Source: a virus. Taken from it: a stretch of DNA of 64,000 nt. Below the pieces are notes generated by a model, which had not been told where the DNA came from, searched no databases, and saw nothing but the letters and a program-made list of their open reading frames with translations. The stretch is from positions 1 through 64,000 of IMG/VR virus record IMGVR_UViG_3300032315_000608; one strand, written 5' to 3'. How positions within the stretch are numbered: the first letter of the stretch is position 1; each line of letters begins with the position of its first letter. This document shows positions 2,201-33,429 of this stretch, piece after piece. A program made the translations under genes and the position numbers.

Positions 2201-2206
2201 ATTTCA

Positions 2207-2230
2207 AAGAATCCAAGAATCTAAGAATCT
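2207..2230 (+). repeat. Three tandem AAGAATC(C/T) octamers
   Basis: AAGAATCC, AAGAATCT and AAGAATCT lie head to tail just past the stop of the small-terminase-like gene. GAATC also recurs on the other flank of that gene (2750-2773). The repeats could be binding sites for that DNA-binding protein. Confidence 0.6.
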
Positions 2231-2242
2231 ATGATACCAAGC

Positions 2243-2707: not shown

Positions 2708-2715
2708 AAACCCAG

Positions 2716-2742
2716 CTTATATGCCCTAGTGCATAAGGTCAA
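2716..2742 (-). promoter_or_regulatory. Promoter for small-terminase-like gene
   Basis: On the - strand, TTGACC (2742-2737), a 15-base spacer and TATAAG (2721-2716). Initiation about 7 bases downstream would start the message near 2709, two bases before the ATG at 2707, which would make it essentially leaderless. Confidence 0.4.
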
Positions 2743-2749
2743 TGCATCT

Positions 2750-2788
2750 TTGAATCAAGGATTCAATGAATCCGTGCATCCTGTGCAC
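2750..2788. promoter_or_regulatory. Cluster of overlapping palindromes
   Basis: TTGAATC-AAG-GATTCAA (2750-2766) overlaps GGATTC-AAT-GAATCC (2759-2773), followed by GTGCA-TCCTG-TGCAC (2774-2788). It lies in the divergent region 2708-2904, between the - strand HTH gene and the + strand gene at 2905. It looks like an operator, or a packaging-site candidate. Confidence 0.5.
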
Positions 2789-2813
2789 CAGATTTCATCT
2801 TCCAACATCCATC

Positions 2814-2845
2814 CCCCCTACCTATCGGGTCGTTCCCGTAGGGGG
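2814..2845. other. Hairpin CCCCCTAC/GTAGGGGG
   Basis: An 8-bp perfect outer stem with an inner GGG/CCC pairing. It sits just upstream of the second GCGTATAGGG element. No U-tract follows on either strand. Confidence 0.5.
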
Positions 2846-2904: not shown

Positions 2905-3390
2905 ATGAGTAATACATACCTTCAAGACTTCGGTCTGCTACGCAAGCAGATGAACGATCGAGAGGTCAACGACCCTATGTCTGGCAGTGAAAGATGGGAG
3001 GACTTGCAGATGGACTTGCGCAAGCCCCATATCCCACAGCCTCGGCGGGCCAACATGCCTGCCAACCGCAAGCTCACGATTGCTGGTGTAACCATCGATA
3101 TCAAGAAGCCCGATGCCAAGCTTACTACGAGTCTTGGCTTCGTCAGCGGTGGCTGTGCCAAGTATGCATTGTCCAGTCCCAAGGCTATCAACTACCGCAC
3201 TCGGTTGCAGGACAGCCGATGCCAAGTCCGTGACCCCAAGGAGGCGGAGCTTTACTGCCCTTATGGTTCGGTGGCCGAGGCCATCAAGCGGTATGTCCGC
3301 AAGGCTAGGTTTGCCACCATCCCAAGCGTGGCTGACAAGTATCGTGAGAAGGTCAGACTGCTATGGCCAGCACGGAGGGTCGGGCGATGA
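2905..3390 (+). CDS. Hypothetical protein, 161 aa
   Basis: First gene of a long chain of small + strand genes, with a clear AAGGAGA Shine-Dalgarno 8 bases upstream. It is a basic protein. Residues 55-100 contain a short beta-rich stretch (RKLTIAGVTIDIKKPDAKL), then three scattered cysteines and a basic helical C-terminus. It ends in an ATGA overlap with the next gene, indicating translational coupling. No family is recognised. Confidence 0.72.
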   Translation: MSNTYLQDFGLLRKQMNDREVNDPMSGSERWEDLQMDLRKPHIPQPRRANMPANRKLTIAGVTIDIKKPDAKLTTSLGFVSGGCAKYALSSPKAINYRTRLQDSRCQVRDPKEAELYCPYGSVAEAIKRYVRKARFATIPSVADKYREKVRLLWPARRVGR

Positions 3391-3638
3391 AGTGTGTCAT
3401 CTGTGACGACCTTATCGAGGCCGAGCGCATCAACCTAGGCTTCTCCAAGTGCAAGGGCTGTGCATTCCTGCACCCCGAACTCAAGGTCAAGGGTGCAATG
3501 GTCTACTCAGACAAGACAGGCGGGGCAATCAATGTGATGAGTCCCGATAGCTATGCAGACTACAAACGAATTTCGCGCAGGGTCGGTCAGCGTTCGGCAC
3601 TAAGGAATGTGCTGGACAATGGCGGTCGCTCGCAATAA
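3387..3638 (+). CDS. Small zinc-ribbon-like protein
   Basis: The ATG at 3387 overlaps the preceding stop (ATGA). The 83 residues start MKCVICDD and have a second pair CKGC near residue 28, giving a CxxC-x(24)-CxxC arrangement typical of zinc ribbons. The remainder is basic (RISRRVGQRSALRN). It may bind nucleic acid or protein; the role is unknown. Confidence 0.68.
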   Translation: MKCVICDDLIEAERINLGFSKCKGCAFLHPELKVKGAMVYSDKTGGAINVMSPDSYADYKRISRRVGQRSALRNVLDNGGRSQ

Positions 3639-9561: not shown

Positions 9562-9763
9562 CGCTGTAAAGATTGCAAACGAGATAACAAAGTGGGATGG
9601 CTACGCTTTGTTTGACAAAGACAATGTATTACTCAACGACCAGTTATTCACATACTACGAACGGGCGCAGAAAATTGCTTCCTGTTACGAGAATGGTGAA
9701 GCCATCATCTGGAAAGTTGAACTGAACAGAAAGGAAAAAGTCAATGATAATTACGTCATCTAG
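9554..9763 (+). CDS. Hypothetical protein, 69 aa
   Basis: GTG start at 9554, nine bases after AAGGA and overlapping the previous stop by 8 bases. Small alpha/beta protein (WDGYALFDKDNVLLNDQLFT). It overlaps the rIIA-like gene by 20 bases, so these are read together. Confidence 0.58.
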   Translation: MSNAVKIANEITKWDGYALFDKDNVLLNDQLFTYYERAQKIASCYENGEAIIWKVELNRKEKVNDNYVI

Positions 9764-12089
9764 AAACACGCCAGTATCAAGCGGGGTTACCGACACGATC
9801 GATTACAAGATCGATGTGTCCAACCTCGGTCACATCGCCAGTATCCTACGCAAAGCTTACTCTGACCCGATCAGAGCGGTTGTGCGTGAGTATGGCACCA
9901 ATGCCTGCGAGGGTCACATCCTCAATGGTAAAACCAACAAGCCCATCCAAGTCTCGCTTCCGACTGGTATGAAGCCAGTCTTTACGATTCGTGACTTCGG
10001 CCCTGGACTTGGCAAGGAGAAGTTCCAAGAGTTGTTCTGCTCGTATGGCGGTAGCGACAAGCGGACAAGCAACGACTTCACGGGCTGTCTTGGTATCGGT
10101 TGCAAATCGTATGGTGCCTACACGGATGCCATTACGGTAACCGACTACAACGGAGTTACTCCCCACAAGGACGGAGTCAAGCGTATCTGGAATTGTCACA
10201 TCGACGAGAGTGAGGTGGGCAAGGCATCGCTGTTAAGCGAGACCAAGACCAACGAACCCTCTGGTGTTGAAATCTCGATTCCAGTTCGGCCACAAGACAT
10301 TAGTAGATTCCGCGAAACTGCGATGCAAGTCTATCGTGTCTTTGATGTCCGTCCCGACATCGTTAACCTATCGCCAGAAGAGAAGAAAGCATATGCCACT
10401 CAGACATACAAGGATGGCATTATCAAAGGAACCAACTGGTCTTTCAATGGTGAAGGCGAAAGCTGGCTCCAGATGGGTCTTGTGCTTTACCCGCTCAAGT
10501 CCGACTTCTCTGGCTCACCAGTCATCAAGCAGTTGATTGACGCTGGAGTCTACGTGAGGGTCGATCTTGGCGATGTCCAAGTCGCTCCGTCTCGTGAGGA
10601 CTTGCAGTATTCACAGAAGACAATCCAAGGCTTGGTCAAGCATCTCAATCCAGTCATTGACTCGATGGGGTCGACCTTGCTTGCGGATATTCAAGCGGCT
10701 CCAGACTTCTTCCAAGCTCACATGATCTTGCGTAGATTCACTGGCACTGGCGGATATAGTTCCTCCAGTTTTCGTGAAGGCATTGTCAAGAAGCTGAAAG
10801 GCAAGCTGAAGTGGAAGGGAATCGCTATGTATGATGACAATCGAATTCCTCTATGTGTCTCGCCTCTCAAGAAAGACCAGACTGAAATCGAGTTGCTTAG
10901 ATCTCACGGCATCACCGCTATGAGCATAGGCAAGCGTAGTTGGGGCAAGGCTAGATTCAATGTCGATCGCTCCGTTGACGAGCTGATTGTCCACAAGGAC
11001 ACACTCGTCATGATCAACGATACTGGCACTGGCTCGGGTGAAGCTCGCGTTCGTCACTGGTTGATGAACGGCGGGCCTAATGGAGCGACCGTGACTATCA
11101 TCAACTTCAAAAATGGTGGCAGGGAGTTCCTTAACAAGACTCTCCCTTGGTTCGCGACGACGACATTCCAACAGGTGTCGTCTCTGCCCATGCCCCCACC
11201 GAAACAGAAAGGTGTAGATGCAAACGGAGTTGAGGTTGAATATGACAAGAATGTCAAGCACACCAAGGGGAATGTGTTTGGTTTACATTCCAAGTATCAA
11301 CGCCAAGACAAGCGTAGTGACTATTGGGGAATCTCAGCAGTACCTACGACTGGCAAGAAAGTCTATGTAACACTCGACCAATTCAAGTGGTCAATGCCTG
11401 GTAAGGACTACGAGATGGAGGAGTATTATCCTCTACATCGGGCAAAAGAATACTTGAAAGCAATCGGGTATTGCGATCAAATCTATGGCGTGAAGGAAGC
11501 TGATGTCGACAAGAAGGTTGATGCAACTTGGACTAAATTGCAGGATGCAATCGAGCAGGGGACACAAGCCTTCCTCAAGGCTAATCCCGACAAGGCTCAA
11601 AAGATTGCTGATCGTTATGCTGTCTTGAGTTTCTTCAACTCTCGATCGGTATACAACAGCGATCGGTTTAGGAAAGAGGGTTGCTTCTTTGAGCGATGCT
11701 CGCTTGGTCGTTGGGTCGGCAATTCCAAGATTAGTCTACTCAAAGACATCAAGTCCGACAGCCCATTTCGAATCTTTATGGATAAGGTTCTGGAGATGTC
11801 TGGAGGATGCGCAGAAGAAGGAGACAAAGACTTGCCAGCTTGGCTTGAGGAACCACAGAATACTTGGGCTCTTGGCCGATCGAATAACGATGATAAGAAA
11901 GGTGTATACCAACAACTCAAAGCGTCGTTGCCTAAACCTTCTTATGATCTGAAAGGTGAGGGAACTGCAATAGCTTCGAGGTATCCATTGCTTTGCCACA
12001 GTAACTGGCAATCAGATGTAATGGAATATCCAACCGAACACACTGTCGAGTATGTGCATCTTGTAGATGCAGCTCGCAAAACAAAATAA
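9744..12089 (+). CDS. rIIA: rIIA-like GHKL ATPase-domain protein
   Basis: A 781-residue protein with an N-terminal GHKL (gyrase/Hsp90/histidine kinase/MutL) nucleotide-binding fold. The N-box is REYGTNACE (Glu49, Asn53), the G1 box RDFGPGLG (Asp84 to Gly90), and a G2-like GCLGIGCKS follows near 114-122. This is the layout of T4 rIIA, a membrane-associated protein that protects infection against some host or prophage-encoded exclusion systems. The rIIB-like gene directly downstream supports the identification. Start at 9744 follows AAAGGAAAAAGTCA. Biochemical activity is not established by sequence. Confidence 0.82.
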   Translation: MIITSSRNTPVSSGVTDTIDYKIDVSNLGHIASILRKAYSDPIRAVVREYGTNACEGHILNGKTNKPIQVSLPTGMKPVFTIRDFGPGLGKEKFQELFCSYGGSDKRTSNDFTGCLGIGCKSYGAYTDAITVTDYNGVTPHKDGVKRIWNCHIDESEVGKASLLSETKTNEPSGVEISIPVRPQDISRFRETAMQVYRVFDVRPDIVNLSPEEKKAYATQTYKDGIIKGTNWSFNGEGESWLQMGLVLYPLKSDFSGSPVIKQLIDAGVYVRVDLGDVQVAPSREDLQYSQKTIQGLVKHLNPVIDSMGSTLLADIQAAPDFFQAHMILRRFTGTGGYSSSSFREGIVKKLKGKLKWKGIAMYDDNRIPLCVSPLKKDQTEIELLRSHGITAMSIGKRSWGKARFNVDRSVDELIVHKDTLVMINDTGTGSGEARVRHWLMNGGPNGATVTIINFKNGGREFLNKTLPWFATTTFQQVSSLPMPPPKQKGVDANGVEVEYDKNVKHTKGNVFGLHSKYQRQDKRSDYWGISAVPTTGKKVYVTLDQFKWSMPGKDYEMEEYYPLHRAKEYLKAIGYCDQIYGVKEADVDKKVDATWTKLQDAIEQGTQAFLKANPDKAQKIADRYAVLSFFNSRSVYNSDRFRKEGCFFERCSLGRWVGNSKISLLKDIKSDSPFRIFMDKVLEMSGGCAEEGDKDLPAWLEEPQNTWALGRSNNDDKKGVYQQLKASLPKPSYDLKGEGTAIASRYPLLCHSNWQSDVMEYPTEHTVEYVHLVDAARKTK

Positions 12090-14506: not shown

Positions 14507-14727
14507 ATTGTTATTGTATTACAAAACCAACGGAACAAAAGTTCCTATCGATCGATGAAACGTGGGTGGACTTTATCACGGGTATCCGTAATGACTCCAT
14601 CCGAGGCTACACCTCTGAGGAGATGGAAGCCTTGAACAACGATGCAACGAAGCATGGAGGCGAGGTGCGACAGCATCCGTCTCCCGACGGAGTCACACTC
14701 CCCTTGTTTTATGACTGGGGTACGTGA
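14503..14727 (+). CDS. Hypothetical protein, 74 aa
   Basis: ATGA-coupled. Starts MNCYCITK, with a helical middle (DSIRGYTSEEMEALNNDATK). Function unknown. Overlaps the next gene by 17 bases. Confidence 0.6.
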   Translation: MNCYCITKPTEQKFLSIDETWVDFITGIRNDSIRGYTSEEMEALNNDATKHGGEVRQHPSPDGVTLPLFYDWGT

Positions 14728-15349
14728 AGTATTTGAGGGACTGAAGTCCCGAGAGGTCAGCCGTTACGTCAATTACTGGGACAAGATTAAGCCCAAGTCC
14801 CGTGAAGACGAATGGCGCTTCTGGATATTCTCGATTCTCGCGGCCAACTTCGGTTGGAAGCAGAACGTGAAAGCCTTTAACGCAATCAAGAATCGCGACT
14901 CGTGGAAGTCCGACCTTGGCAAGCTACAGTTCGAACTGTATCAAACCAAGACTGGACTGTGGCGGACCAAGGCCGTGAGCATCTGGAAGTTTGATCAGAT
15001 GTTCGCCGCCAAGCCCCACATCTTCGAGCGTTATCCCAATGAGCCGTTGATGCAATACCGTGACAGGATTGCCGACAACGTCCCAGGATTGGCGATTGCC
15101 AAGTCAAGCTTCTATGTGGAGATGAAACATCACGAAGAGTCAAACGTTGTTTGCCTCGATCGTCGTGTGCTTAAGTCTATCCACAAGAGGGATAGGAACG
15201 TGAACAGGACTGACTACCTCGCGCTTGAGAACGAGTGGCAGACCTGCTCACAGGAGTACGGTATCCCAGCGGCTACTGCCAGATTCATCTGGTGGGACAA
15301 GTTGCAGGGGTATAAAAATAGTCGGTACTGGAGTGAGGTATTAGAATGA
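14711..15349 (+). CDS. Helix-hairpin-helix DNA-glycosylase-like protein
   Basis: About 212 residues from the ATG at 14711. The segment NVPGLAIAKSSFYVEMKHHE, followed by VVCLDRRVLK, matches the helix-hairpin-helix-Gly-Pro-Asp pattern of base-excision glycosylases, with Asp as the presumed catalytic residue and Lys supplying the lyase-type position in VPGLAIAK. The rest is helical as expected. Substrate unknown; it could act on damaged or modified phage DNA. Longer starts (14642) overlap the upstream gene and are rejected. Confidence 0.6.
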   Translation: MTGVREVFEGLKSREVSRYVNYWDKIKPKSREDEWRFWIFSILAANFGWKQNVKAFNAIKNRDSWKSDLGKLQFELYQTKTGLWRTKAVSIWKFDQMFAAKPHIFERYPNEPLMQYRDRIADNVPGLAIAKSSFYVEMKHHEESNVVCLDRRVLKSIHKRDRNVNRTDYLALENEWQTCSQEYGIPAATARFIWWDKLQGYKNSRYWSEVLE

Positions 15350-19345: not shown

Positions 19346-22300
19346 TTACTGTCTTTCGGGATACAAGATACCCTCTTGATTTTTCTCAAGAAGAACTTGG
19401 TATAGGATTGCTTTTTTAATTGGATTTACAATTGCTCGCGTCGCCTCTCTAAACTGTCCTGGACTCATCGCCTCCAGCTGGGGAATGACTTGGGATAGCT
19501 GTTCCTGAATAACAGGACCAGCTCTCATCATCCATTCGTACTTCTCGTCCGTTGAGAGTTCCCGTTTGAGGTTGTAGAAATCGTCCTGTGTTAGCTGCTC
19601 GCCTTTGGCTTGAGCGTCCTGAATCATCTCAGCCATAGCAAAATCTTTAAGGGGGCCGGCATCCCAATCCAATGAGGAACGCTTAGATGCAAACATGGAA
19701 ATAAGCTTATCGTGAATTGCCTGTGGGGTTCTATCCCCATTGTCATAAGCTTTAGAATCAACGCCTGTAGTTGTGAGTCGACGTAAGAAGGGAATAGTAT
19801 TCGCTACCTGTGTCTTTGTGTTTCCGCCAAGGAAATCAAGGTCAGGTCTACCAACCTTTGAAGCGAAAGGAACGGACTGAGCAAACGTAGATAGAAAATT
19901 TTCTTGATACGGGCGCGCGGATGGCGAACCATATATACCATTAAACACTTGTTCAAAATCCCGAAGAGTTGCATAACCCGGTATCAGACCTCCCGCAACA
20001 TTACCCATGGTTTTACTTAGGTTGGTCATGATTCCTTTTGCGTCTCGCTGGCCAACGCCGGGAGAAGTGAGAGACATAATCTGACGTATGCCAGATAGAG
20101 CCGCCATATCTAGAACACCATACATAGCGAGAAGCGCACCGGTCGCCCCACCAAGTAGGATAGACTCTGCCACGGATCGTTTCTCGTATCGAATAGATTC
20201 CGTAATAGCCCCAGCTAGAAGCAGAGGTCCGGACAACCCAACGGGGAAACCCTCAAAACTAAAGAAGCTTGGTTTACCTTCACTGAACCTCCCTAGCTGG
20301 ATGGAGCGAAGTTTGCCTCCGGCGGCAAAGAAAGCTTCGCGTTGAGCCGGATCCGTTGGTCCCTTGAAGTGAATATTAAAATATGGGTCATCCTCTCCAC
20401 TCATAGCGTCCTTAAGGAGGAATAAAAGCCCAATGGTAATCGCATATCCAGCATTCATTTTTCCAAGCATAAGATCATGCTCAACTGTTCCGGGAACAGG
20501 TGGAGGACGATAATATTTAGTGTCCTTCAACATGGCCGCGGAACCACGATATAACCTGATGGTGGATATTGCGGGGAGAAAATTTAAAACTTCGTTTGCC
20601 AAGCTTGATCCAGTTTTTAAGAACTTAATAAACAGCCTTAATGGCCACGCCTTGGCAGAGATACTTGTCAGGCCATCGGCCAGCAACCCAAACCAGCCTT
20701 CAAAATTGTTTGTATATGTTGATTGCGCTGCGAATGTTTTTGCTTTTTCCGTCAAATTTTTAACGCTCTCTTCGTCTGGTCTACCCTGCTCGAGAATTTC
20801 TTCTACCCGTAACGATTGCTGTTCGGGCGTTAAATTAAATTCCTTAGCCTCCGAGGCGGCTTTGGCCTCCGCACGCTTTCTGGCTTCAGGACTTTGATTT
20901 AAAAGGCGGGCAACTTCTGTTTCAATCTCATCGTTTGTCTGGAGACCTTGTGCAATCGCAATGTTAGTTGCCTCTGCAATCTCATACATTTTACGTGAAG
21001 AGATTTTATTGATCGCGTCACCAGCTGCCATGGCTCGACCGAAGAAAATGAAAGGGGCAAGAGCTCCATACTTACTGCTAAGATATTTAGAGTCTAGCGG
21101 AATTCGGTATTCTTGTCCGAACACATTTACGGGAAGCTCAGGCTGAACAGCTCCTGGTTTACCCGCTCGGTAATCTTCCCCTTGTTTTACAATTGCTTCC
21201 CAGATATTAACTCCACCCAATTCCTGGGTCAAAGCATCTTGAATATTTGAATAATCTCCATTAAAGAATACGTTAGCTGCGGCATTCAACGCCGGCTTCT
21301 CGCCAGCAAAGATAGCTGAGTTGAGCGCAATCGCCGCATCCCTATAAGCTTTGGCTCTTGCCTTGTCTCCGCGAACCCCCTTCATCGCGCCAACTGCCGC
21401 AAGAATTGCGGCGTTGAGCTGATTGCTCATCGACGAAGACCAAGCATTGATACCGATCGTTCCAACTCCTGCCAGCAAGTTGGAAGTTTGATAATTCACG
21501 AGCAACTCTCCCCATAGCTGGGGCGAAACCAACTTTACATACTGATACATCTCAGAAATCTTTTTATTCCGAATCATGCCGACCGGATAGAGAGGGAGGT
21601 CTTCAATCAACTTGTTGAGCTTCTTGCGTTCTTCCTCTTTAAGCTCGGGCAATCCAAGCTGAGAATGCATTTGAGCGAATACTTCACTATCGTTCAAAAC
21701 TCCAAGGTTGGTGGCCTCAATCAAACGGTCTAAAGCTGAACGCATCTTCCTAGTCTTACGTTCTTTTTTTGCGTCAAATCTTTTCTTAATTCTTTCTAGT
21801 TCTAGCTTACGTTCTTTAGCAATAAGATCCGTCAATCCTTCCCGCAGGAAATCGGTCACTTCTTTCTTTTGAGCTTCGTCGAGCGTTGTGTTCTGAGTCA
21901 GCAATGCACCTAGCTTGTTTTCAAAATCCATGATATCGCCCTTGCTCGAACGGATGAGACCGCGAATATTAGTTTGAGGCCCACCGATTGATTCGAGAGA
22001 ACGAACTGCCTGCTTCAGGCTCGACACAGTAAAGGGACGGCCAAAGGCTTCATCGATGAAAGGCTCAAGTCCAGCGAGTTCTTCTTCGCTATAAACTTCT
22101 TTCAAGGAGTCACGCACATTGTCAATAAACTCCATGACATCTGGATACTTCTCAATTCTATCACGAAGAACTTCGGCCTCAGTCGGCTTCGGCTCTGGTG
22201 TGTAGGTAGGCTGAAGTCCGCCCTGCTCTTTTGTTCTCTGTGCGATGAGTCTGCGAATACGTGCAGCAAACTCTTCGAGCTGATCTTTCTTCTTTGGCTC

Positions 22301-25300
22301 TTGCTGTAGACGGGCTGCCTGCTTTTGTAAAGCTTCCGCTGATGCTTCCGCCAAAGCTTCAAGTCTCGAAGTGGCTTCGGTAGGAATTGCAACGGGAGCT
22401 TGGTCTTTGGCTTTAGCCTTGGCATCAATCACGCGACGAATTGCTTCTCCGCGTGTGGCGGGGGGCTGGATGCCCTCGCGGGCGCGAGCTTCGCCAAGAG
22501 CTTGAGCTGAGAAAATTTCAAGAGCATTAGTCAAAGCGGCATCAAAATAAAGATCGAGTTTGCGTCGAACATTCTCCTGATTCTTTGCGTCCCGCAGAGC
22601 TGGGGTAAGCATCAGCAAGCTTTTGATCTGATCCTCGGAAGCGGCCGTCACGCCAGGGTTTTCAGAACGCTGAATGATCTCAAGTATCATTCGGCTCAGT
22701 GCGGTAGTTTGTTCTGGATTGAGACGAATGCCATCGGCATCACTTCCCTCAACCTCGGGGGCAGCGGCTAGATCTGCCCCAAGGAATTCCGCTCCATCTG
22801 CCAGCGCTTGCTCGCTTCCAACGTATTCTGCTACTGCCGCTTCGAGTTCGGCAACAGTTGCTTGCTTCTTATTAAGCTCTACAAGTTTTGCAATCTTTTC
22901 AATCGTCGACTTTGTCTTCTTATCTGTCGTTAGTTTGTCGACAGCTCTACGAGTGGAGTCAACAAGACCAGAGGATATCTCGCTTTCTTCTTCTGCAAAG
23001 CCTGTCAGCCTTCCTCGAATCGACGAATCAATTTGTCGGTTAATGTACATCTTCATGGCTTCTGGATTGTTGGAGAGTTCCCCTAGTGCATTCCAAAGAT
23101 CAACGGTTCGTCCAGGTTCGGTGCCGTACTTCCTGCTCAATAGGAGCATTACCTCGGCCAACTGTTCCCTGGCGTACAGGTCTGTCTTAGCTTTCGCACC
23201 AAGAGCATTGGCCAACTCAAATCCAATTGCACCCTGCAACGGCAAGGAGCTTTTGATGTTACCGCTCAAGAAAGCGTTGAGAGAATTCTGCAATCCGTTT
23301 GTAGCGATATAAGATTTAGCGTCAGCAAATTGTTGTTCGCGTGGTACAGATTGGTAGTACCAAGCGTCCAGAAGTTTATCTTTCACCTTGCCTTCGGGAA
23401 GAACGTCAACGAACTGCGTGACAATATTTTTTACGGCTCGGCTTTCACGAATCTCAGGGGCTGGTGATACGCGAATAACTTCGGTTGATGGTACTGGGAT
23501 TGAAACTGGTCCTCCATCTAATGAGACTGAGTTAATGATTGGTTTCTCAGGTATAATTTCTATGGCTGGAGCCGGAGAGATAACCTTGGCGAACTTATTA
23601 TATCCAGCATCGCGGAGAGCAGCGATCAGAGGTCCGGGGCTGGTATAACGTTGTCCGTTATAGTTAACCACTTCCTGTCGTTCGAATAGTCGGATGACGG
23701 CATTAGCCGTGGCTTTTGCTTCTGAGGAAGCTGTGGTCGGAACGGCTATGTTGCCCGGAATCTTGACGCGATATTGTTGATATGCTGGTTGAGGTTCGAA
23801 ACTTTGTTCGTTGCTGGTCACTTCAGCGGGTGCAGAAGTTGCCACAAAAGCTGCGACTGGCAATGACCTTCCAGCCTCTTCCATATTCTCGGCTATCTCA
23901 AGGGCTTTATTGGCAATCGCTGGAAGACTTGCCCGACCTCCGTCCATAACGGCTTGCGTTGCGGAACGGAAAAGATCGCGCTCATCAGCCGTAATAATCC
24001 CACGGCGTCGGCTAATATCGAGGGCGTCCAGCCACTCCTCTACGCCAACAGTCTTGAATAAATCATCGGCAACTGTAACTCCAAGTACGCCTTCGGTTCT
24101 TCCCTCAAGATGATTCTCAATCATGCGGTAGATTCGAAGATCGTATGAGTCAAATACGGTCGCGGCACGGGGTGCAGTTGGTGAAGTTCCCGGAGCAGGG
24201 ATGGGTCTGGCCGGAGCTTCTCCAGCTTGTACAAATTCTTTTGATGTTTTGCGAAGTGTGGAGATTGCGTCCTCGATGCTTTGACGCATTACCAAACGAT
24301 CTTTTGCGTTCGGAGCCAATCCCAATCCACGCTTGACCACTGTAGCCATGCTGTCAAACCACACACCGAGTCTAGCGAGAACAGATCTATTCTCCGATTT
24401 AATAATATCCTTGAGACGTTGAGTCGCCCGAGCAATGTCGTTTGCATTTACGGAGTTGACCTGCTCAGTAATTCCGCCCGTTAATTTTAACTGGGATAGC
24501 TGACGAATTCCTTCCATAGCAACGAAGAAAGGATCGTTCGCAAGAGCTTTAATCTTTGCTTGCGTGTCTGGGTTTGTTATGTCGGACCCTAATGTTGCGT
24601 AATACAATCTTCCAATAGCTAGTCTGGAGGCTTGAGATAATGAATCACCAATCGCAGTGAGTTCTTCGATAGGATCAAGGCCAAGCTCGCGGTAATACCG
24701 AAGCGTCTCCATGTGGATCGTTTCTTCGATCAATGCCTGGGTTATGTAAGACTTATAAGCATCGGGAGCAAGTGCGTTCCTTCCTTTTTCCAGGAGCGCG
24801 GGGTTGATTACAATGACGTCGGAATCATTATCTGACCCCACCACAACAGCTATTGGATGATTGAAATTCGGATCAAGTTTTACGTTGTAATTATGGGCTT
24901 GGCCCTTGGCGTCGCGGAACGTAATTACATTATTGTTGTAGTCTTTCCCAAGAGCCAACTTTAAAATCTCGTCTGTAGTTGCGATTTGTTCGGGAGTAGG
25001 CTCGGCTTCAGAGCGAACAGTAGCTACACGTTCTTGTGGACCAGCCGGAAATTCAGTACCTGTAGTTATAGACTCCTCATTTACGGCTCCCGATAAAACT
25101 AATTGTTTTAAGAGCCAATCCGCGTAACCAGAACCAATGTTCATTTTCTTTTGTATAAATGATTTACTAACTGTCTGTTGACCTTTTAGTAATTCCAAAG
25201 CTTGTTTAAATCTCGCTTTATCTGTTTCTCCTCTTACTCCTTGCCCCAAATTATTTATAAACTCTTCTAAGTTTTTAGTAACTCCGCTTGGTTTAACTAT

Positions 25301-28300
25301 AGTTTCTTCAGCCTTCAGCCCTTCAAACCCAGCACCTGTGGTGGCGTCCAGCAAGCGGAGCTTGGCACGCATCCGGTCAATGTTCTGTTGGTCAACTTCG
25401 GCTTTCGACTCCAAGAAAATAAGATTGGGTCGGCTGGCGCTGTCAGTACGCCATACCCTATAGATGAGCTGAACAGCTTGAATCGCGCTGACGGGTGGCG
25501 ACATAATAATCATGTCGCGAGGCTTGTCCCCGAACTTATCGTCAAGCTCAATTCCAGTGCCGCCCATTTCCTTCGTGGCGATCAGAACATCAGCTGCGTT
25601 CTCATTGAAAGCTGCGAGTGCCTGTTCCTTAGTCTGCTCTGAACCAGTGTACATCCTTGCAATTTTGAGATCAGGAGCAAGGCGAAGGATTGCCGCTTCT
25701 ACCGCGGCTGAAGTTGGGTCGACCGTTTCTCCGCGGGCATTTGTTTCAGAAACAAACCCGACATAGATAACTGGCTTACGACCTTGGCGGATAGATTGGA
25801 TGGCTCGCTTGGCCGCGGCATCAACTTTATATTCTTCTAGCGCCCGCTTCTGAGCGGCTACCAGTTTGCGTAATGATGCGATGTCGGTGTTCTGTGCGCC
25901 ACCATACATGTTCTTGATGTCTTCCAGTTGCTTAATGATTGCAGAGTCCAACGGAACATCTTGGAACTCTACATTCACACCATCCAATTTGAGGGATCGG
26001 GAACGCAGGATTCCATTCTTTACGAGTCCATCGAGATACGCTTCGAGACGATCTTGCATCTCGGCTTCGGTAACTCCGGGCGACAATGTCCAATAAGATT
26101 TCTTTCCACCCCGGAGGTATTGCTTCTCAAACCCAAGTCTTTTGATCAAGGCATCGGGCGACTCGGTGTCGAAGATACCAAGTCGTCCAAGCGAGAGAAG
26201 CTGATCGGGTGTCTCAAACGGAGTTCCAGAAGCCATCAGTACTCGACCGGCCTTCTGTGAAATCTCATTCATCAGGATCGACCAAGCGCGGCTCTTACCT
26301 TCTTGAATTGCTTTATGCAGATTTCGTCCGGAATGCTGTTCGTCAAAAATAACAACTGTCTTTGCATTCACTAACGGAAGAATTTTTTCCAAGTACTGCG
26401 AAGTGTAAGTGGAGACAACAACTTTTCCTGGCACATTCTCAATTGGAAGACCGCGACCACTCTCACCCTTACCACCACGAGCCGCGATCGGAACGCCCAT
26501 CAATCCGGCATCTTTCTCAATCGAACCGCCGATTGTGTTGAGATCCCAGTTCGGGGTAACGGCATCGGGAGCCGTCAAATAAAATACATTAAATCCTTTG
26601 TTGAGATAGTATTTGGCTGCCGCCAACAACACTCGGGTCTTGCCAGTTCCAGGACCATTAGCCAAGTAAAAAGCTTTATGCTTGGAGCTTTCCATCGTGG
26701 TGATGGCCGCCGCCGCATCTTGCTTTTGCTCTGGAGATAAGAGGCTAGTAGTTTCTGATCCGATCGGATCTAGAACTTTCTCGCTGTAAGGTTTGCCTAG
26801 CTGGTTGCGGGATTCGACGAAGGACTTGGGGATGGGGACGCCACGAGCGCGTTCAGCTCCAGGTCTCCCGACTCCGGTTGCCCCACCTGCAACAGCTCGT
26901 CCCACTTCTTCCCGCTTAACGGGAACGGTTTCTTGAGAAACTCGCTTTGTGGTGGCAGCACGTTTGGCTTCGATTTCCGCGAGCTTCTGGCGAGCTTCCT
27001 CACGTCGATCATCGGCTGTTTTGGCTTTTGGCTTGGGGGTTGGTTTAGTTGTTGGTTCTTCATATGTTCCTTCCTCGTTGGTGGTAATTCCGCTATCGGC
27101 CAGAATCTGGTCGTTGACCTTTAGCAGATTTGATCGGAAGGTGGCGGCAATATTGTTCTTTGCCGGTCCCTCTTCCATTGTTTGAGAAGCCAGATAAGGC
27201 TCCGCAAGTTTGTTTAATTTATCGACATAGTCATCGGACTGAGCTTTGGAAATGTTTCCGTCATCGAGGGCAGTCTTAAGATTGCTGTCGACCGCTTCAG
27301 CCAGTTCAGTGATACCCTCAGGAGAAAGTTTAGACTCAACTACGGAATCCATATATCCTTCAAAAGCCCGAAGGATATTAACGGAGCGGGTGCTTTGGGT
27401 TTGTTCGAGCAATGCCTTGGCGGAGGCAAGCTCTACGTCGTCAAAGAAATCATCGGCCTGTAGTTTTCGGAAGCGTTCGATTGCTGGCTGGATTTGTTTA
27501 GCAGTTAGACTTCCCTCTCGGACAATTCCTTCTGGTTCCACGACCTCTCGAACTGGAAGAGTTCCAGCTTCCTGATTCTTGCGGTATTCAGCCTGTAACG
27601 CAGAAACAAACTTCTGCTGAACCGCCGGCTTCAATGCATTGATGTTGTCGACAGTAGTTCCAATCTTAGCGGCATCTTGGGCTGTAGCTCCTTTACCGGA
27701 AGTCACGGAGTCAAACGCGAGTTTCTCGGCTTCAGTTCCTAGCGATTGCCTAAAAGGTGCTTGAAGGTTCTGGGCAAGAATGGAAAGGGCTTCTTGCCTC
27801 TGGGCTGGCGAAGGAACGTCAGAAGGATTGGCAACTTGATTGTCCACCTCTGTTGCATCGATCTGGTCGAGGGCTTCGTTGATCGCTCCGGCAACGGCGG
27901 GGTTGATTCCTTGTTCCTCGGCCAGCGTATCAGCATCGACTGCATTAACACGAAGGCCGGGAGTCTCAAGGCTAACAGCCGCGCCAAGACCAACTCCCGC
28001 GCGCATCCGAGGAACAGCCCTGCGGATAAAGTCCCGAAGTCGGCTATTAAAAATTGTGCTTAAGGAAAGATTGTTCTTGCCTTGTCTGAGTTCATACAAA
28101 AAGCTGTTGATGGTCGCGGCAGATACTTCATCGGCAATATTATATTTTTGATATCCAGCCAGCGACTTGCTCTGCAAATAAGATCTCTTACGGTTGACAT
28201 AAGCCAGAACAGTTTCGGCTGGGGTCATTATGTTGCGACCGTTCTCGTCGATCGCACCAAGACTTTGGAGCAACTCGATTGTCGCGGGATTCTTTAAGTT

Positions 28301-30829
28301 AAATACTGCACCGAGAGCCTCGCTCGAATTCTCTCGAGGATCTGGCTCTAGCTTTTGATACTTCTGGAAAGACTCGCTTTCGGGGTTGTTGATCGGGAGA
28401 ACGATATCGGGACGGGCTTCCAATTCGGGGGCCAGCTTTCCAGTTCTGGCTTCTTTCGTAGCTTCGTTCTCAAATTGCTGAACTAACTTAGATACCGACT
28501 CTTCGCCACGTACTAACCGGGCAGCCTGTCCCTCAATCTGCATGGCTTGAAGTCTTGCAAGTTGTTCCTGCATGGCGACGGCTTCATCTGCCGGGGCTTC
28601 CTTTATTTTATTTTCAAGAACATTAATTTGATCCTGAAGTTTTTTAGCATTGATCTCGGCTGGTTTCTCCTGCTCAATCAGCTCTTGGCTTTTGGCCAGT
28701 TGGCTTTCCAAGGCGACTTCATAATCGGTTGGGCCGAGATATTTTCTGGCAACTTCTTCGATGGCGTCGTCTGTTCCAGCTTTCTCCAACTCAGAATTCA
28801 TTTGGTCAATCTCGTCGGTCTCAAGACCAATCTCTTCCGCACGCAGAATAAACTGATCTTTTAACTCTTGCTTAAATTCAATCGCAGGAATCCCGTTCAT
28901 CCAATTGCCAGCGTCAGTTTTTACATTCGTTACAGAATAGGTTTTTCCGTCTTCGGACAATTCACCAATTACCCGACCCTGACTCTCAAGCCATTGAATC
29001 TTCGAAGCATTCTCTGGTGTATTAGAAAGGTTAATGGTCGTGGCACCTTTCTCAAAGACACCAATCAACTCGTTGAGTGCTGAAAGCTTTTCCTCTTCGG
29101 TTTCAGGAGCTCTAGTTTCAATCGTTGCTGGCGTACCGATTTGCCCCTCTGCTTTTGAAATCTCCTGTGTCAACATGGATTCAACCGATCCTTGCTTCGC
29201 GGATTCTACTGCTTCGTCTGCTACCTTTGTTGTCTCGGGAGTGGTTACCGTATCAAGGGAGGAACGAACATTGACAGCATCAAAAAGAGATTGAGCCTTT
29301 GGTGAGGTTAAGGATTGACGAAGTTGGGCTAGTTGTTCCGCCTTCTGTTGGTCATTAAGATTTGGATCAACTTTAATGCTCGATACTGTTTGCTCTAAAG
29401 ATTTTGCAAATCGATCGTCCGCTAATTTATATATCTTGGCTCGACGATTTGCGATAGACGCTGCCCCTATAACTCCAGGGATTGCCATTCCAAGTCCAAT
29501 ACCTCCCGATACAGCCAAGTTCTGGAGCAAAGGTTCTACGGGATCTTGACCGCGGAGGATGGCCTCAATTTCTTCTGATGCAGTTTCTCCGAGGGTGGTT
29601 CCAACTACTTTCCCCGTGCTACCAACTAAAGGCGCAAGGGCTGGAATTTTTGTGGCCAATGCTTTTGCGGCGACGTGATTGGCTAGGGCGTTATCGATCG
29701 AGTTTTCTAATTTGTTTCCAGCACCTTCGGCTAAACCCAGAACTGCACTCTCGCTGAATATGGAGGACAGACGCTGGGGGACGGTTAGATTCCGTGGGTC
29801 GCCCTCGAAAGATTGCGATGCCCCGATAGTTGCATAAGTTGCCCCTCTGGAAAGAACGGTCGGAACTTTGATAGCTTGATCTGCGATCTGGCCAGCTTTA
29901 CCCAATAGCTTTGTGGCACCGGCACCAACTCCAATAAACGAACCCACAGATCCGAGGGCCGATCCAGCCAAGGTTCCGGTCATGTAATCTTTTTGAATTG
30001 TATTGTTAATTGCGTTGGAAAGGGCGGCTCGACGGGCAACTTGGTCGGGATTGTTTTCGTCAACTATGATGTCACCGAGAGAAACAAAAGGTAGGAAGGC
30101 ATCGCCAGATTGAATTGCAAAGTTCCGCAGGCTGGCCGATCCCAATTTTTTAGAGCGATCGCTTTCAAGATCTCGAAGATAGTTTTCGGCCATTGCCAAA
30201 TTCATTCCAAGCTTCGCTGTTAGAGGTCCCGTGCCAAAAGCCATCGCTGGCTTCTCGTCTTTCGGAACGATTGACTTTCCGCTGGTTAATTCATCCTCGT
30301 AAAAATTTCCAAGCTCCAAAGCTTTAGCTGCCTGCGCTGGGTCGGTGATTGTTCCTACATAGTTTCGGGCAGCAAAACTTTTCTGCGTTGCTTCGGCTTC
30401 CTCATTTGTAATTCCAAGGCCAGCTTGCAAGTAAGCCCCCATAGTCTTTCCCACGCCAAGAAGGGCGAGCTTGGTAAGTTCACCCCAGTCGCCTTTTTTC
30501 TCTGCATCTAAAATCTTTTGGCTAGACTCAAGTGAATAGTTGCGGACGTTGTTTTGTACGTCTTGCCACGCTTGGGTGTTGAATGGAAGTTTCTTTTCTT
30601 GGAGTCGAGTCGCCAGACCACCGATAAGATCGGTTGACTGCGGGTCATCCCTAAGATCGATTAGATTTTGAGCTTGCGCGAGATTGGTGGGCGGGGCTGA
30701 AAATAAGGAGTTAATCTCCTGTTCGGGGGTAACTCCAGAAGGAGCAAACAATGCGTCGATAGCTTGTTGCTCACCCTCGGGGAGACTCGCTATATCAAGC
30801 TCTGTCTCAGGGTTAAATGGATCCGCCAT
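19346..30829 (-). CDS. Giant ejection / polyvalent protein with SF2 helicase core
   Basis: A single 3827-residue frame, last of three adjacent ejection-protein-type genes, in the place of T7 gp16 but about three times as long. Residues 1-500 are helical with hydrophobic stretches. Near 1390-1800 lies an SF2 helicase core: GPGTGKT (I), IFDEQH (II), MASGTPFET (III), QLIYRVWRTD (VI). At 1880-1925 an FtsK-gamma-like winged helix follows (SFIQKKMNIGSGYADWLLKQ). Residues 2000-2170 hold a degenerate zincin-like EETIHMET. Long coiled coils follow, and the last 600 residues carry several hydrophobic segments (about 3256-3270, 3390-3430, 3457-3475, 3530-3580). I infer injection with the genome and action on DNA in the host. 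No Shine-Dalgarno is visible. Confidence 0.8.
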   Translation of the reverse strand: MADPFNPETELDIASLPEGEQQAIDALFAPSGVTPEQEINSLFSAPPTNLAQAQNLIDLRDDPQSTDLIGGLATRLQEKKLPFNTQAWQDVQNNVRNYSLESSQKILDAEKKGDWGELTKLALLGVGKTMGAYLQAGLGITNEEAEATQKSFAARNYVGTITDPAQAAKALELGNFYEDELTSGKSIVPKDEKPAMAFGTGPLTAKLGMNLAMAENYLRDLESDRSKKLGSASLRNFAIQSGDAFLPFVSLGDIIVDENNPDQVARRAALSNAINNTIQKDYMTGTLAGSALGSVGSFIGVGAGATKLLGKAGQIADQAIKVPTVLSRGATYATIGASQSFEGDPRNLTVPQRLSSIFSESAVLGLAEGAGNKLENSIDNALANHVAAKALATKIPALAPLVGSTGKVVGTTLGETASEEIEAILRGQDPVEPLLQNLAVSGGIGLGMAIPGVIGAASIANRRAKIYKLADDRFAKSLEQTVSSIKVDPNLNDQQKAEQLAQLRQSLTSPKAQSLFDAVNVRSSLDTVTTPETTKVADEAVESAKQGSVESMLTQEISKAEGQIGTPATIETRAPETEEEKLSALNELIGVFEKGATTINLSNTPENASKIQWLESQGRVIGELSEDGKTYSVTNVKTDAGNWMNGIPAIEFKQELKDQFILRAEEIGLETDEIDQMNSELEKAGTDDAIEEVARKYLGPTDYEVALESQLAKSQELIEQEKPAEINAKKLQDQINVLENKIKEAPADEAVAMQEQLARLQAMQIEGQAARLVRGEESVSKLVQQFENEATKEARTGKLAPELEARPDIVLPINNPESESFQKYQKLEPDPRENSSEALGAVFNLKNPATIELLQSLGAIDENGRNIMTPAETVLAYVNRKRSYLQSKSLAGYQKYNIADEVSAATINSFLYELRQGKNNLSLSTIFNSRLRDFIRRAVPRMRAGVGLGAAVSLETPGLRVNAVDADTLAEEQGINPAVAGAINEALDQIDATEVDNQVANPSDVPSPAQRQEALSILAQNLQAPFRQSLGTEAEKLAFDSVTSGKGATAQDAAKIGTTVDNINALKPAVQQKFVSALQAEYRKNQEAGTLPVREVVEPEGIVREGSLTAKQIQPAIERFRKLQADDFFDDVELASAKALLEQTQSTRSVNILRAFEGYMDSVVESKLSPEGITELAEAVDSNLKTALDDGNISKAQSDDYVDKLNKLAEPYLASQTMEEGPAKNNIAATFRSNLLKVNDQILADSGITTNEEGTYEEPTTKPTPKPKAKTADDRREEARQKLAEIEAKRAATTKRVSQETVPVKREEVGRAVAGGATGVGRPGAERARGVPIPKSFVESRNQLGKPYSEKVLDPIGSETTSLLSPEQKQDAAAAITTMESSKHKAFYLANGPGTGKTRVLLAAAKYYLNKGFNVFYLTAPDAVTPNWDLNTIGGSIEKDAGLMGVPIAARGGKGESGRGLPIENVPGKVVVSTYTSQYLEKILPLVNAKTVVIFDEQHSGRNLHKAIQEGKSRAWSILMNEISQKAGRVLMASGTPFETPDQLLSLGRLGIFDTESPDALIKRLGFEKQYLRGGKKSYWTLSPGVTEAEMQDRLEAYLDGLVKNGILRSRSLKLDGVNVEFQDVPLDSAIIKQLEDIKNMYGGAQNTDIASLRKLVAAQKRALEEYKVDAAAKRAIQSIRQGRKPVIYVGFVSETNARGETVDPTSAAVEAAILRLAPDLKIARMYTGSEQTKEQALAAFNENAADVLIATKEMGGTGIELDDKFGDKPRDMIIMSPPVSAIQAVQLIYRVWRTDSASRPNLIFLESKAEVDQQNIDRMRAKLRLLDATTGAGFEGLKAEETIVKPSGVTKNLEEFINNLGQGVRGETDKARFKQALELLKGQQTVSKSFIQKKMNIGSGYADWLLKQLVLSGAVNEESITTGTEFPAGPQERVATVRSEAEPTPEQIATTDEILKLALGKDYNNNVITFRDAKGQAHNYNVKLDPNFNHPIAVVVGSDNDSDVIVINPALLEKGRNALAPDAYKSYITQALIEETIHMETLRYYRELGLDPIEELTAIGDSLSQASRLAIGRLYYATLGSDITNPDTQAKIKALANDPFFVAMEGIRQLSQLKLTGGITEQVNSVNANDIARATQRLKDIIKSENRSVLARLGVWFDSMATVVKRGLGLAPNAKDRLVMRQSIEDAISTLRKTSKEFVQAGEAPARPIPAPGTSPTAPRAATVFDSYDLRIYRMIENHLEGRTEGVLGVTVADDLFKTVGVEEWLDALDISRRRGIITADERDLFRSATQAVMDGGRASLPAIANKALEIAENMEEAGRSLPVAAFVATSAPAEVTSNEQSFEPQPAYQQYRVKIPGNIAVPTTASSEAKATANAVIRLFERQEVVNYNGQRYTSPGPLIAALRDAGYNKFAKVISPAPAIEIIPEKPIINSVSLDGGPVSIPVPSTEVIRVSPAPEIRESRAVKNIVTQFVDVLPEGKVKDKLLDAWYYQSVPREQQFADAKSYIATNGLQNSLNAFLSGNIKSSLPLQGAIGFELANALGAKAKTDLYAREQLAEVMLLLSRKYGTEPGRTVDLWNALGELSNNPEAMKMYINRQIDSSIRGRLTGFAEEESEISSGLVDSTRRAVDKLTTDKKTKSTIEKIAKLVELNKKQATVAELEAAVAEYVGSEQALADGAEFLGADLAAAPEVEGSDADGIRLNPEQTTALSRMILEIIQRSENPGVTAASEDQIKSLLMLTPALRDAKNQENVRRKLDLYFDAALTNALEIFSAQALGEARAREGIQPPATRGEAIRRVIDAKAKAKDQAPVAIPTEATSRLEALAEASAEALQKQAARLQQEPKKKDQLEEFAARIRRLIAQRTKEQGGLQPTYTPEPKPTEAEVLRDRIEKYPDVMEFIDNVRDSLKEVYSEEELAGLEPFIDEAFGRPFTVSSLKQAVRSLESIGGPQTNIRGLIRSSKGDIMDFENKLGALLTQNTTLDEAQKKEVTDFLREGLTDLIAKERKLELERIKKRFDAKKERKTRKMRSALDRLIEATNLGVLNDSEVFAQMHSQLGLPELKEEERKKLNKLIEDLPLYPVGMIRNKKISEMYQYVKLVSPQLWGELLVNYQTSNLLAGVGTIGINAWSSSMSNQLNAAILAAVGAMKGVRGDKARAKAYRDAAIALNSAIFAGEKPALNAAANVFFNGDYSNIQDALTQELGGVNIWEAIVKQGEDYRAGKPGAVQPELPVNVFGQEYRIPLDSKYLSSKYGALAPFIFFGRAMAAGDAINKISSRKMYEIAEATNIAIAQGLQTNDEIETEVARLLNQSPEARKRAEAKAASEAKEFNLTPEQQSLRVEEILEQGRPDEESVKNLTEKAKTFAAQSTYTNNFEGWFGLLADGLTSISAKAWPLRLFIKFLKTGSSLANEVLNFLPAISTIRLYRGSAAMLKDTKYYRPPPVPGTVEHDLMLGKMNAGYAITIGLLFLLKDAMSGEDDPYFNIHFKGPTDPAQREAFFAAGGKLRSIQLGRFSEGKPSFFSFEGFPVGLSGPLLLAGAITESIRYEKRSVAESILLGGATGALLAMYGVLDMAALSGIRQIMSLTSPGVGQRDAKGIMTNLSKTMGNVAGGLIPGYATLRDFEQVFNGIYGSPSARPYQENFLSTFAQSVPFASKVGRPDLDFLGGNTKTQVANTIPFLRRLTTTGVDSKAYDNGDRTPQAIHDKLISMFASKRSSLDWDAGPLKDFAMAEMIQDAQAKGEQLTQDDFYNLKRELSTDEKYEWMMRAGPVIQEQLSQVIPQLEAMSPGQFREATRAIVNPIKKAILYQVLLEKNQEGILYPERQ

Positions 30830-30864: not shown

Positions 30865-32424
30865 TCAACGATTTTGTCCTGAATCTTCAACCGTTCCCGG
30901 GGAGACCACATTAGTGGGAACGTTAACTCCGGGGATGGTATACCCACGGGCTTTAAGGTTGGCCAAGACCTCTCTAGCCGGTCTGCCATATACAATGGCG
31001 TTAGGATCTCTACGATAAGCTTCAGCTATAATAGCTATAGTGGAATCCGAAATTGGAGCTGGTTGATTTCTAGGGGTTATTGGGATGGAAGCAGTGCCCG
31101 GTGTTCTTGGGGCTGTTCCTCCGGCAGTGGTCGCTACATTCGAAGAATCGTTGGGTATGAATTCAAGTTTCTTTATGTTCGGATTGGCCGGAGCTTCGGA
31201 GAGTGCTTTCCCGAGCATAGCCTGCATTGCATTATAATCGCCATTCATTGCCCTAGTTAACAGCTGATCGTAGTCAGTAATTTCTTTTTGCTTGACCTTT
31301 GTTAGCAATCCAGTTCTTGGATCGATGTCTCTATCGGTAAGATTCATATTGGGCATGGATCTCACAAAAGTTGCCCTCTTCTCTCCAGTGATCGGGTCGG
31401 TAGTCTCTACCCCAAGGCTTGCATTTTTCTGCACCAAGTTTCTTTGGTCGACCGTAAATTTTGTTTTCATCTCGTCGAGATATGCTTGCTGACTATCTTT
31501 AGTGATATCTTTTGCGAGGCCACGAAGCTGATTGAAAGCATCAGGATTATCAATTCTGTCTTGCCAATTCGGATACTGTTTCTTAATAACATCGTATCTG
31601 GCTTGGTATTTTGGGTCGAGAATGTTTCCGGCCGCTCCATCTGAATTCAATTGCGTGATACCATTTAACACCACGTCATCAGATAGCTTCGTTAGTGCAG
31701 CATTTTTTTGAGATAAAATCTGAGAGAATTTATTAACTGTATTATCCGTCATACCAAGATTGGCAAACTGTGTTTCAATGTCATTTAGCGCCAAGCTTGC
31801 ATCTTCAGGGGTCATGCGATCAATGGGAAGATTTGCTGCTCGTACTAGAAGTGCGTCGGCTTGTGGTTTCTTCTGCCTATTGGCCACCAAATCATCGACT
31901 CTGCGTTTTCTTTCTTCTGCAATATCAAGCCTATCGAGCATTGTCATTTTTGTTAGACTTGACAGAGATGTGTTATCGAGTGCTGCCTCAGCCATAGCAA
32001 TTTGGTCGGGGTCCCCCGAGTTTCTCGCGTCGCGGATATAAGAATAAAGCCTTCCAGACTCAGCATCTTCTCTATTCTTTCTGTCAATCTCTTCCATCTT
32101 TTGTCGTTTTTCTTCTTGGACGAGCTCGAGTTTATCTAACTCTAAACGATCTGCTGCGGCTTGACGTTGACGATTGTAAGCAAGACTTTCTAAATCGCGC
32201 TGATTTTTTATTCCTTCGAGTTCAATCCTTTGACTATCGAGGTCAGCTTGTCTGGCTTGATTATCCCTTTGAGCCGCGAGTTGTGCGTAGCCTAATGCAA
32301 GTTGAGCCCCGGCTTGTTGTTCTTGTTGGAACAACTGTTGCTTTTTAAGATAGTCTTCGCGAACATCACCAATGATGCCACGAACCTGACTTACATAATC
32401 TGGGGCGTTAGGTGAGAGGGCCAT
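30865..32424 (-). CDS. Internal virion / ejection protein (coiled coil)
   Basis: A 519-residue protein. Residues 20-130 are an almost continuous charged coiled coil (QAGAQLALGYAQLAAQRDNQ, then EEKRQKMEEIDRKNRED). The middle is helical, and the C-terminus Pro/Thr-rich (GTAPRTPGTASIPITPRNQP). Position between a gp14-like gene and the giant protein suggests the gp15-like component of the ejected core. Sequence alone does not show the function. Confidence 0.65.
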   Translation of the reverse strand: MALSPNAPDYVSQVRGIIGDVREDYLKKQQLFQQEQQAGAQLALGYAQLAAQRDNQARQADLDSQRIELEGIKNQRDLESLAYNRQRQAAADRLELDKLELVQEEKRQKMEEIDRKNREDAESGRLYSYIRDARNSGDPDQIAMAEAALDNTSLSSLTKMTMLDRLDIAEERKRRVDDLVANRQKKPQADALLVRAANLPIDRMTPEDASLALNDIETQFANLGMTDNTVNKFSQILSQKNAALTKLSDDVVLNGITQLNSDGAAGNILDPKYQARYDVIKKQYPNWQDRIDNPDAFNQLRGLAKDITKDSQQAYLDEMKTKFTVDQRNLVQKNASLGVETTDPITGEKRATFVRSMPNMNLTDRDIDPRTGLLTKVKQKEITDYDQLLTRAMNGDYNAMQAMLGKALSEAPANPNIKKLEFIPNDSSNVATTAGGTAPRTPGTASIPITPRNQPAPISDSTIAIIAEAYRRDPNAIVYGRPAREVLANLKARGYTIPGVNVPTNVVSPGTVEDSGQNR

Positions 32425-32427
32425 TGC

Positions 32428-33429
32428 TTATACCATTCTACCAAAGCCGGGGGCAACAGGTCTTGTGGTAACCCTTGCGCCCGGTTGATAACCAACAAAA
32501 GAACCAGTCTTAATATCGAACTGGCCGGGCAAAGCTTGAGTCTGATAAGCATTGAGCAAGTTCTGGTTGGCAATCTGCTGGTTGACTGAGGCTTGGTTGG
32601 CCGCAGTGCTAAAGATCTCATTGGGAGAAATCGGAGTCATAGCCTGCATTGCTTGTTGTGCCAACGCGGAAGACCTAGCCAACAAATCAGCTCCCTGCTG
32701 TTGAACTTGTAACGACCCCAATCCTAAATCACGGGCAAGAATATTACGGCCAATTCCAGAGCGCCCGCCAAGGCCAGTGCTGAAACCAAGGCCCGCGGCT
32801 CCACGACCAATTTGACTGGCCATATCGCGAGAAAGTTGTCCAGTTGCATAAGTAGCTCCAGCTTGAGATAGAGCCCTAGCTCCAGCTTCAGTCTGCGGTG
32901 CAAATTGTTTGTACTGCTCCGCAAAAGGTGCATTAGCCTCCATCGCTCTTTTACCCATTTCTGCATAATCAAGATTTAATCCTTGTAGGGTTGGAGCTGG
33001 GCCTAGATAAAACTCCAGAGGCGAGGGTTGTCCAATAGAAATTGCTCCGCCACCACCAAATCCGCCACCACCCCCACTTCTCGGTATACTTCTAGCGCTA
33101 ATCCCGCTTGGATTATCTCGCTGAGTGGCTGCGGCTCGTGCGGTAGCAATTCCTGGCCCTGTGTATGTGTTATTAAATGCATTTTGTTGACCCATCCACT
33201 CGTTCCAATCCTGTCCGGGAGCCCGTGGGATTTCACCATACGACATACTCCCGGGATCCCTAGATTGCTGTAACGCGCGGTCATATGAATATTGCTCATA
33301 CGATTTGCCAGAACCCATGAAATTACCGCTAGGGAAATTACTGCTAGGACGAGTTGTAACGGGTGCACTGCCTCGACCATAAGCGCCGGAGGCGGCCGCA
33401 TTAAAAATTGAACTATAATCAATCGCCAT
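32428..33429 (-). CDS. Internal virion protein, gp14-like by position
   Basis: 333 residues, Gly/Ala/Ser/Gln-rich. Residues 1-120 are low-complexity and end in a poly-Gly stretch (GGGGGFGGGG). From about 145 to 270 it is helical (AGARALSQAGATYATGQLSR), with amphipathic segments typical of proteins that form an ejection conduit. Directly upstream of the other two ejection candidates with 3-4 base spacing. Role inferred from composition and order. Confidence 0.6.
   Translation of the reverse strand: MAIDYSSIFNAAASGAYGRGSAPVTTRPSSNFPSGNFMGSGKSYEQYSYDRALQQSRDPGSMSYGEIPRAPGQDWNEWMGQQNAFNNTYTGPGIATARAAATQRDNPSGISARSIPRSGGGGGFGGGGAISIGQPSPLEFYLGPAPTLQGLNLDYAEMGKRAMEANAPFAEQYKQFAPQTEAGARALSQAGATYATGQLSRDMASQIGRGAAGLGFSTGLGGRSGIGRNILARDLGLGSLQVQQQGADLLARSSALAQQAMQAMTPISPNEIFSTAANQASVNQQIANQNLLNAYQTQALPGQFDIKTGSFVGYQPGARVTTRPVAPGFGRMV

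Follow-up and report, generated by a model that had tools for sequence, protein, structure and literature searches.

The window analyzed here, a stretch of 64,000 bases forming part of a 69,340-base IMG/VR virus record of an uncultivated, short-tailed phage, contains a giant gene whose 3827-residue product joins a complete predicted SF2 ATPase to a C-terminal region with homology to T7-like phage internal virion proteins. We favor, with a probability of about 0.6, the reading that this is a polyvalent podovirus ejection protein whose ATPase would enter the cell with the genome and translocate on the incoming double-stranded DNA; its packaging, ejection and cytoplasmic action are what we infer.

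The giant gene and its relatives

19346-30829, minus strand: complete ORF of the putative giant ejection protein, 3827 aa, with an ATG start and five full-length relatives
26840-30829, minus strand: N-terminal region, residues 1-1330, conserved among the relatives

A preliminary description of this DNA had given a 3827-residue product, which the ORF confirms; the strand, unstated there, is minus. Five complete relatives are present on other IMG/VR contigs, 3737-3956 aa long and 63-96% identical overall, so the frame is a real, maintained gene. The N-terminal region has a dN/dS of about 0.05-0.11 where measurable; it gave no match in family searches, and BLAST with the N-terminal part of the giant against 50,697 phage genomes gave none at E 1e-3. 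A PDB sequence search with a profile of the whole protein also gave no match. Divergence is uneven along the gene, a sign of within-gene recombination, since the version on contig L005 is close to that of the window at residues 2457-3050 (dS 0.22) yet saturated at residues 1-1330.

Position in the late operon

The late operon begins with TerL followed by portal-like, scaffold-like and MCP-like genes, and ends with genes of 404, 333 and 519 aa and, last, the giant. The terminase was assigned by a PHROG match, and the portal-, scaffold- and capsid-like labels come from gene order and sequence character; the tail genes follow these.

30865-32424, minus strand: 519-aa gene in the position of gp15/internal virion protein C, placed by order and size only
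32428-33429, minus strand: 333-aa gene in the position of gp14/internal virion protein B, placed by order and size only

The giant is the last gene of this putative ejection block. It had been described as occupying a gp16-like place after two ejection-type genes, and of this the last place in the block stands, while 'ejection-type' applies to the two upstream genes by order and size only; family searches with the 333-aa and 519-aa products gave no match. The order is that of T7, and in phage ProddE the matching gene carries the annotation 'internal virion protein D' and lies after B and C. In blastp comparisons of the window's other structural proteins with podovirus MW202801 there was nothing beyond one chance-level 14-residue match.

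Homology of the C-terminal region to internal virion proteins

19349-21682, minus strand: C-terminal region, residues 3050-3827 with a core at 3263-3596, with homology to T7-like podovirus internal virion proteins

The identification as an ejection protein, first made from gene position, gains support from profile comparisons. With hhalign, the six giant C-termini (~780 aa) match the internal virion proteins of five isolated T7-like phages (P-GSP1, ProddE 'D', S-CBP3, S-TIP37 and Pelagibacter phage Gjalp, with their annotation fetched) at a probability of 97.2 and E 3.7e-11, or E 8.6e-18 when two intermediate proteins are added, whereas the helicase profile compared with the same set as a control gives a probability of 0.8% and E 0.07. 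BLASTP matches the C-terminal region to a 1121-aa protein of MW202801 (UOF82117) at E 8e-15. Both this protein (2e-24) and a second non-giant protein of 2076 aa (1e-21), which shares the C-terminus and carries other cargo, match PHROG 6651 'internal virion protein'. Sequence profiles thus show homology between the C-terminal ~780 aa of the giant and the internal virion protein that T7-like phages encode. T7 gp16 itself has no sequence match to the giant, and the annotated T7-like homologues of the comparison set also fail to match gp16. A PDB sequence search with the internal-virion profile gave no match, and a hydropathy scan of the giant found no obvious transmembrane segment and one weak 19-mer.

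Phage helicases are usually early genes whose products are made in the cell, and the giant could accordingly be a late protein that never belongs to the virion, a replication or repair helicase joined by chance to structural-operon sequence. The C-terminal homology and the late operon position argue against this, as does the separate early SF2 helicase gene that the phage already has (53367-54671), and we regard it as very improbable.

The SF2 ATPase core

25316-26734, minus strand: SF2 ATPase core of predicted SWI2/SNF2-Strawberry-notch type, residues 1366-1838, from Pfam, tblastn, hhalign, Foldseek and dN/dS
26636-26656, minus strand: motif I/Walker A GPGTGKT, residues 1392-1398, invariant in six sequences
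26333-26344, minus strand: motif II DEQH, residues 1496-1499, invariant in six sequences
26222-26230, minus strand: motif III SGT, residues 1534-1536, invariant in six sequences
25544-25579, minus strand: motif V region ATKEMGGTGIEL, residues 1751-1762, invariant in six sequences
25448-25480, minus strand: motif VI QAVQLIYRVWR, residues 1784-1794, with two arginines invariant in the six-sequence alignment

Motifs I, II, III and VI of an SF2 helicase had been noticed in order at about residues 1390-1800, and this is borne out: together with motif V they are ordered over two RecA lobes, VGFVS at ~1690 lies in the motif IV region, and the catalytic residues K1397 (Walker A), D1496-E1497 and R1791/R1794 are invariant in the window and the five full-length relatives. 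The motifs are not a chance occurrence, because Pfam ResIII (25.8 bits, over its 22.5 cut-off), Helicase_C (over its Pfam cut-off in a whole-genome search with the neighboring genes), hhalign against two plasmid Strawberry-notch proteins (E 6e-17 over 457 columns) and Foldseek all match. Plasmid Strawberry-notch proteins are the nearest annotated relatives of the core by tblastn, and the Strawberry-notch Pfam models are below cut-off on the giant (AAA_34 22.5 against 27, Helicase_C_4 20.2 against 30.5). Structure prediction, which had been put forward as a check for a helicase fold, agrees: Foldseek with an AF2 model of the helicase part, of medium confidence, finds the SWI2/SNF2 and XPB ATPases Rad26, ISW1, RapA and XPB at E down to 5.6e-12 in an alignment spanning both lobes, although at a TM of 0.2-0.3 and a pLDDT of 63 the lobe placement is unreliable and we claim the fold class alone. 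The dN/dS of the core is 0.009-0.07 where measurable, the minimum of the gene for most pairs. These analyses show that residues 1366-1838 make up a complete predicted SF2 ATPase, which belongs to the SWI2/SNF2-Strawberry-notch type and is subject to strong purifying selection.

Retention of the fold as structure only, devoid of activity, would be in keeping with a motif III that reads SGT rather than SAT, but is very improbable given the invariant catalytic residues and the lowest dN/dS of the gene. BLAST of the helicase part against the 50,697 phage genomes gave none at E 1e-3 and weak partial matches at E up to 10; a GTDB genome scan found no relative of the helicase, and a PDB sequence search with the helicase profile gave no match.

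The phage has a second gene of this superfamily:

53367-54671, plus strand: standalone SF2 helicase of the early module, present in three relatives too

Its product is 26% identical over 171 aa to the second ATPase lobe of the giant, and at E 1.9e-11 it is more distant from the core than the Strawberry-notch proteins are.

Two hypervariable slots

25028-25309, minus strand: slot A, residues 1841-1934, a hypervariable insertion point directly behind the ATPase, from the alignment of relatives and composition
25076-25216, minus strand: FtsK-gamma-like winged helix, residues 1872-1918, from a sub-cut-off Pfam match, similarity to FtsK/EccC and the model
23462-23572, minus strand: slot B, residues 2420-2456, a short linker in the window, from the alignment of relatives

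Comparison of the six sequences reveals two hypervariable points between invariant flanks. At slot A the window has 94 aa; L011 has an unrelated segment of 127 aa, and the remaining four relatives have 2-10 aa. Slot B is a short linker except in L006, where it is ~240 aa long and includes a YHGTS motif, and in L005, where it is 94 aa long. The proteins of L006 and the window differ in both slots despite being 96% identical. The alignment shows that modules are exchanged at both slots among close relatives, and near-identical phages with modules swapped at two fixed places are a natural series for probing the function of injected cargo domains.

Compared with the gene, the slot A insert of the window is markedly rich in A and T (GC 0.36 and GC3 0.21, against 0.48 and 0.44), which points to its having been recently acquired. 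When excised, it matches the FtsK gamma Pfam model with 23.1 bits and E 6e-5, under the 30.6 cut-off, and is called 'FtsK-gamma-like' only; it also resembles, at E 9e-4, FtsK/EccC translocases from mycobacterial prophages and has a helical HTH pattern in the predicted model. These features show slot A to hold a predicted FtsK-gamma-like winged helix of the DNA-binding type, adjoining the ATPase.

The segments in the relatives are of other kinds. The unrelated 127-aa module in slot A of L011 (L011:6401-6832, containing GTIYSGSWHPAAYEEY and GFVTSTGRFVTREEA) gave no family match and no phage match. The slot B insert with YHGTS in L006 (L006:6002-17872, residues ~2354-2600) is a possible ADP-ribosyltransferase; with a PARP match at E 0.06 only, the ART identity is kept as a hint. 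Elsewhere in the window there is a group of FtsK recognition-like sequences:

1642-2842, plus strand: five GGGNAGGG sites on a single strand within 1.2 kb

The 7 sites in 64 kb are about what base frequencies predict by a rough hand estimate, and the KOPS count is not used as evidence.

The slots bear on the reading that ranks next best after the translocase, in which the injected ATPase is an anti-defense effector like P1 DarB that counters restriction or another host defense, and does not act in DNA entry. The exchangeable modules look like arms-race turnover, including the ART-like YHGTS in one 96%-identical relative, and most polyvalent SF2 ATPases, DarB among them, are linked to antirestriction (PMC5512222). 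However, proteins of the DarB type carry an adenine methylase ahead of the helicase, and a search for such a methylase-helicase dyad gave no adenine methylase family match N-terminal to the helicase of the giant; the ATPase, moreover, is the most constant part of the giant and not a variable one. We consider an anti-defense role somewhat unlikely.

Residues 1945-2210 and processing

24200-24997, minus strand: conserved domain, residues 1945-2210, with an invariant EETIH at 2035-2039 in the six-sequence alignment

This domain has no Pfam match and no Foldseek match. Metallopeptidases that serve in self-processing are frequent in polyvalent proteins (PMC5512222), and the invariant EETIH resembles HExxH, as would suit a polyprotein that is cleaved before or after packaging to release the helicase as a free enzyme, perhaps never present in the virion. 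We rejected the metallopeptidase (zincin) reading, as the giant has no HExxH, the first H being E in EETIH, and neither Pfam nor Foldseek gives a zincin match. The virion RNA polymerase of N4 is packaged unprocessed (PMC5512222), so giant proteins can be packaged whole, and cleavage of the giant is quite unlikely.

Proposed mechanism

Under the ejection reading, the giant would be packed in the phage head and be expelled together with the DNA or before it; as with gp16 in T7, its C-terminal region would anchor or deliver it to the inner membrane and the cytoplasm. Like SWI2/SNF2 enzymes, the ATPase, fuelled by host ATP, would then move along the incoming double-stranded DNA and not unwind it; it may either strip host proteins off that DNA or help to draw it in. 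Because gp16-C of T7 is cytoplasmic, shows no sequence preference in binding DNA and has been implicated in translocating the genome (PMC8954989), a translocase fused to a gp16-like protein would be well placed to pull DNA or to clear host proteins. Several results count against this reading: T7 gp16 has no match, nor do the two upstream genes in the B and C positions; the AF2 helicase model is of medium confidence; and hydropathy shows no obvious transmembrane segment. Also counting against it is the size of the giant, ~3x that of the largest gp16 homologue (1337 aa) in a review of ejection proteins, which lists homologues of 609-1337 aa and leaves helicases unmentioned (PMC8954989).

T7 uses gp16 as the gate for genome entry and relies on RNA polymerases to pull in its DNA (PMC8954989). 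In contrast to the T7-like phages, no T7-type RNA polymerase was detected in five possibly incomplete records of the window's phage group, with T7 and P-GSP1 positive as controls, and entry driven by a phage polymerase is therefore not evident there. The giant might be an ATP-driven genome importer, a double-stranded DNA translocase held at the inner membrane by its internal-virion C-terminus that reels the genome in and replaces the transcription-driven entry of T7; we think this unlikely. As an importer, it would have its DNA engagement tuned by the FtsK-gamma-like module in the window's strain. What powers the last stage of podovirus genome entry is unsettled, and a natural fusion of an ejection protein with a double-stranded DNA translocase would make the question directly testable.

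Comparison with known systems

The giant shares with the T7-like internal virion proteins (P-GSP1, ProddE 'D', S-CBP3, S-TIP37 and Gjalp) a homologous C-terminus and the place of last internal-virion gene in the late operon, but those fetched are about 860-1270 aa long, whereas the giant, at 3827 aa, also contains a helicase and further domains.

The preliminary description had also invoked the 'polyvalent protein' theme, and the combination of an SF2 ATPase, an internal virion domain and an FtsK-gamma-like wHTH near virion genes fits it, with precedent in the SWI2/SNF2 and Strawberry-notch-like ATPases and FtsK wHTH domains that Iyer et al. (2017) found in injected polyvalent proteins (PMC5512222). 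The proteins they describe from phages and conjugative elements (P1 DarB and SnoC-wHTH proteins among them) are likewise giant and multidomain, lie beside virion genes and have an SNF2/Strawberry-notch ATPase, an FtsK wHTH-like module and exchangeable domains; the giant differs in having no recognized methylase, MPTase, MuF or ParB domain and in its T7-type internal-virion C-terminus. The plasmid Strawberry-notch proteins (Aeromonas pAC1520 WP_277857178 and Pseudomonas WP_270036756) belong to the ATPase family of the giant by profile over 457 columns, at 25-33% identity, but they pass the Strawberry-notch Pfam cut-offs, which the giant does not, and their long inserts differ.

Two proteins have the C-terminal ejection family of the giant in the same gene position and, unlike it, lack the helicase: UOF82117 of MW202801 (1121 aa) and P0003 on IMG/VR contig 3300025669_001086 (L021:2504-8734). 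P0003, at 2076 aa, is itself a candidate polyvalent ejection protein, with a ParB-like domain (PHROG 2579, 3e-22), a HELGH motif and the internal-virion C-terminus.

A literature search, with most subscription-journal papers outside its reach, found no report of a polyvalent protein built on a T7-type internal virion protein, and within the sources searched a DNA-moving ATPase turned up in no further ejection protein of this type. The polyvalent theme is already published; the architecture is new, with no methylase found, a gp16-type C-terminus and a helicase in mid-protein.

Other genes in the window

58352-60142, plus strand: ORF matching positions 670-1225 of a 1445-position DNA polymerase PHROG
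60082-62268, plus strand: weakly DUF5906-like ORF
14642-15349, plus strand: 8-oxoguanine DNA glycosylase-like gene (Pfam Ogg-HhH, 1e-8)
9744-12089, plus strand: RIIA-like protein (PHROG 612, 1e-89)

The polymerase-like and DUF5906-like ORFs overlap by 61 bases, and the start of the latter may be misplaced. RIIA is best known from T4, and its relative here is encoded in a podovirus-like genome.
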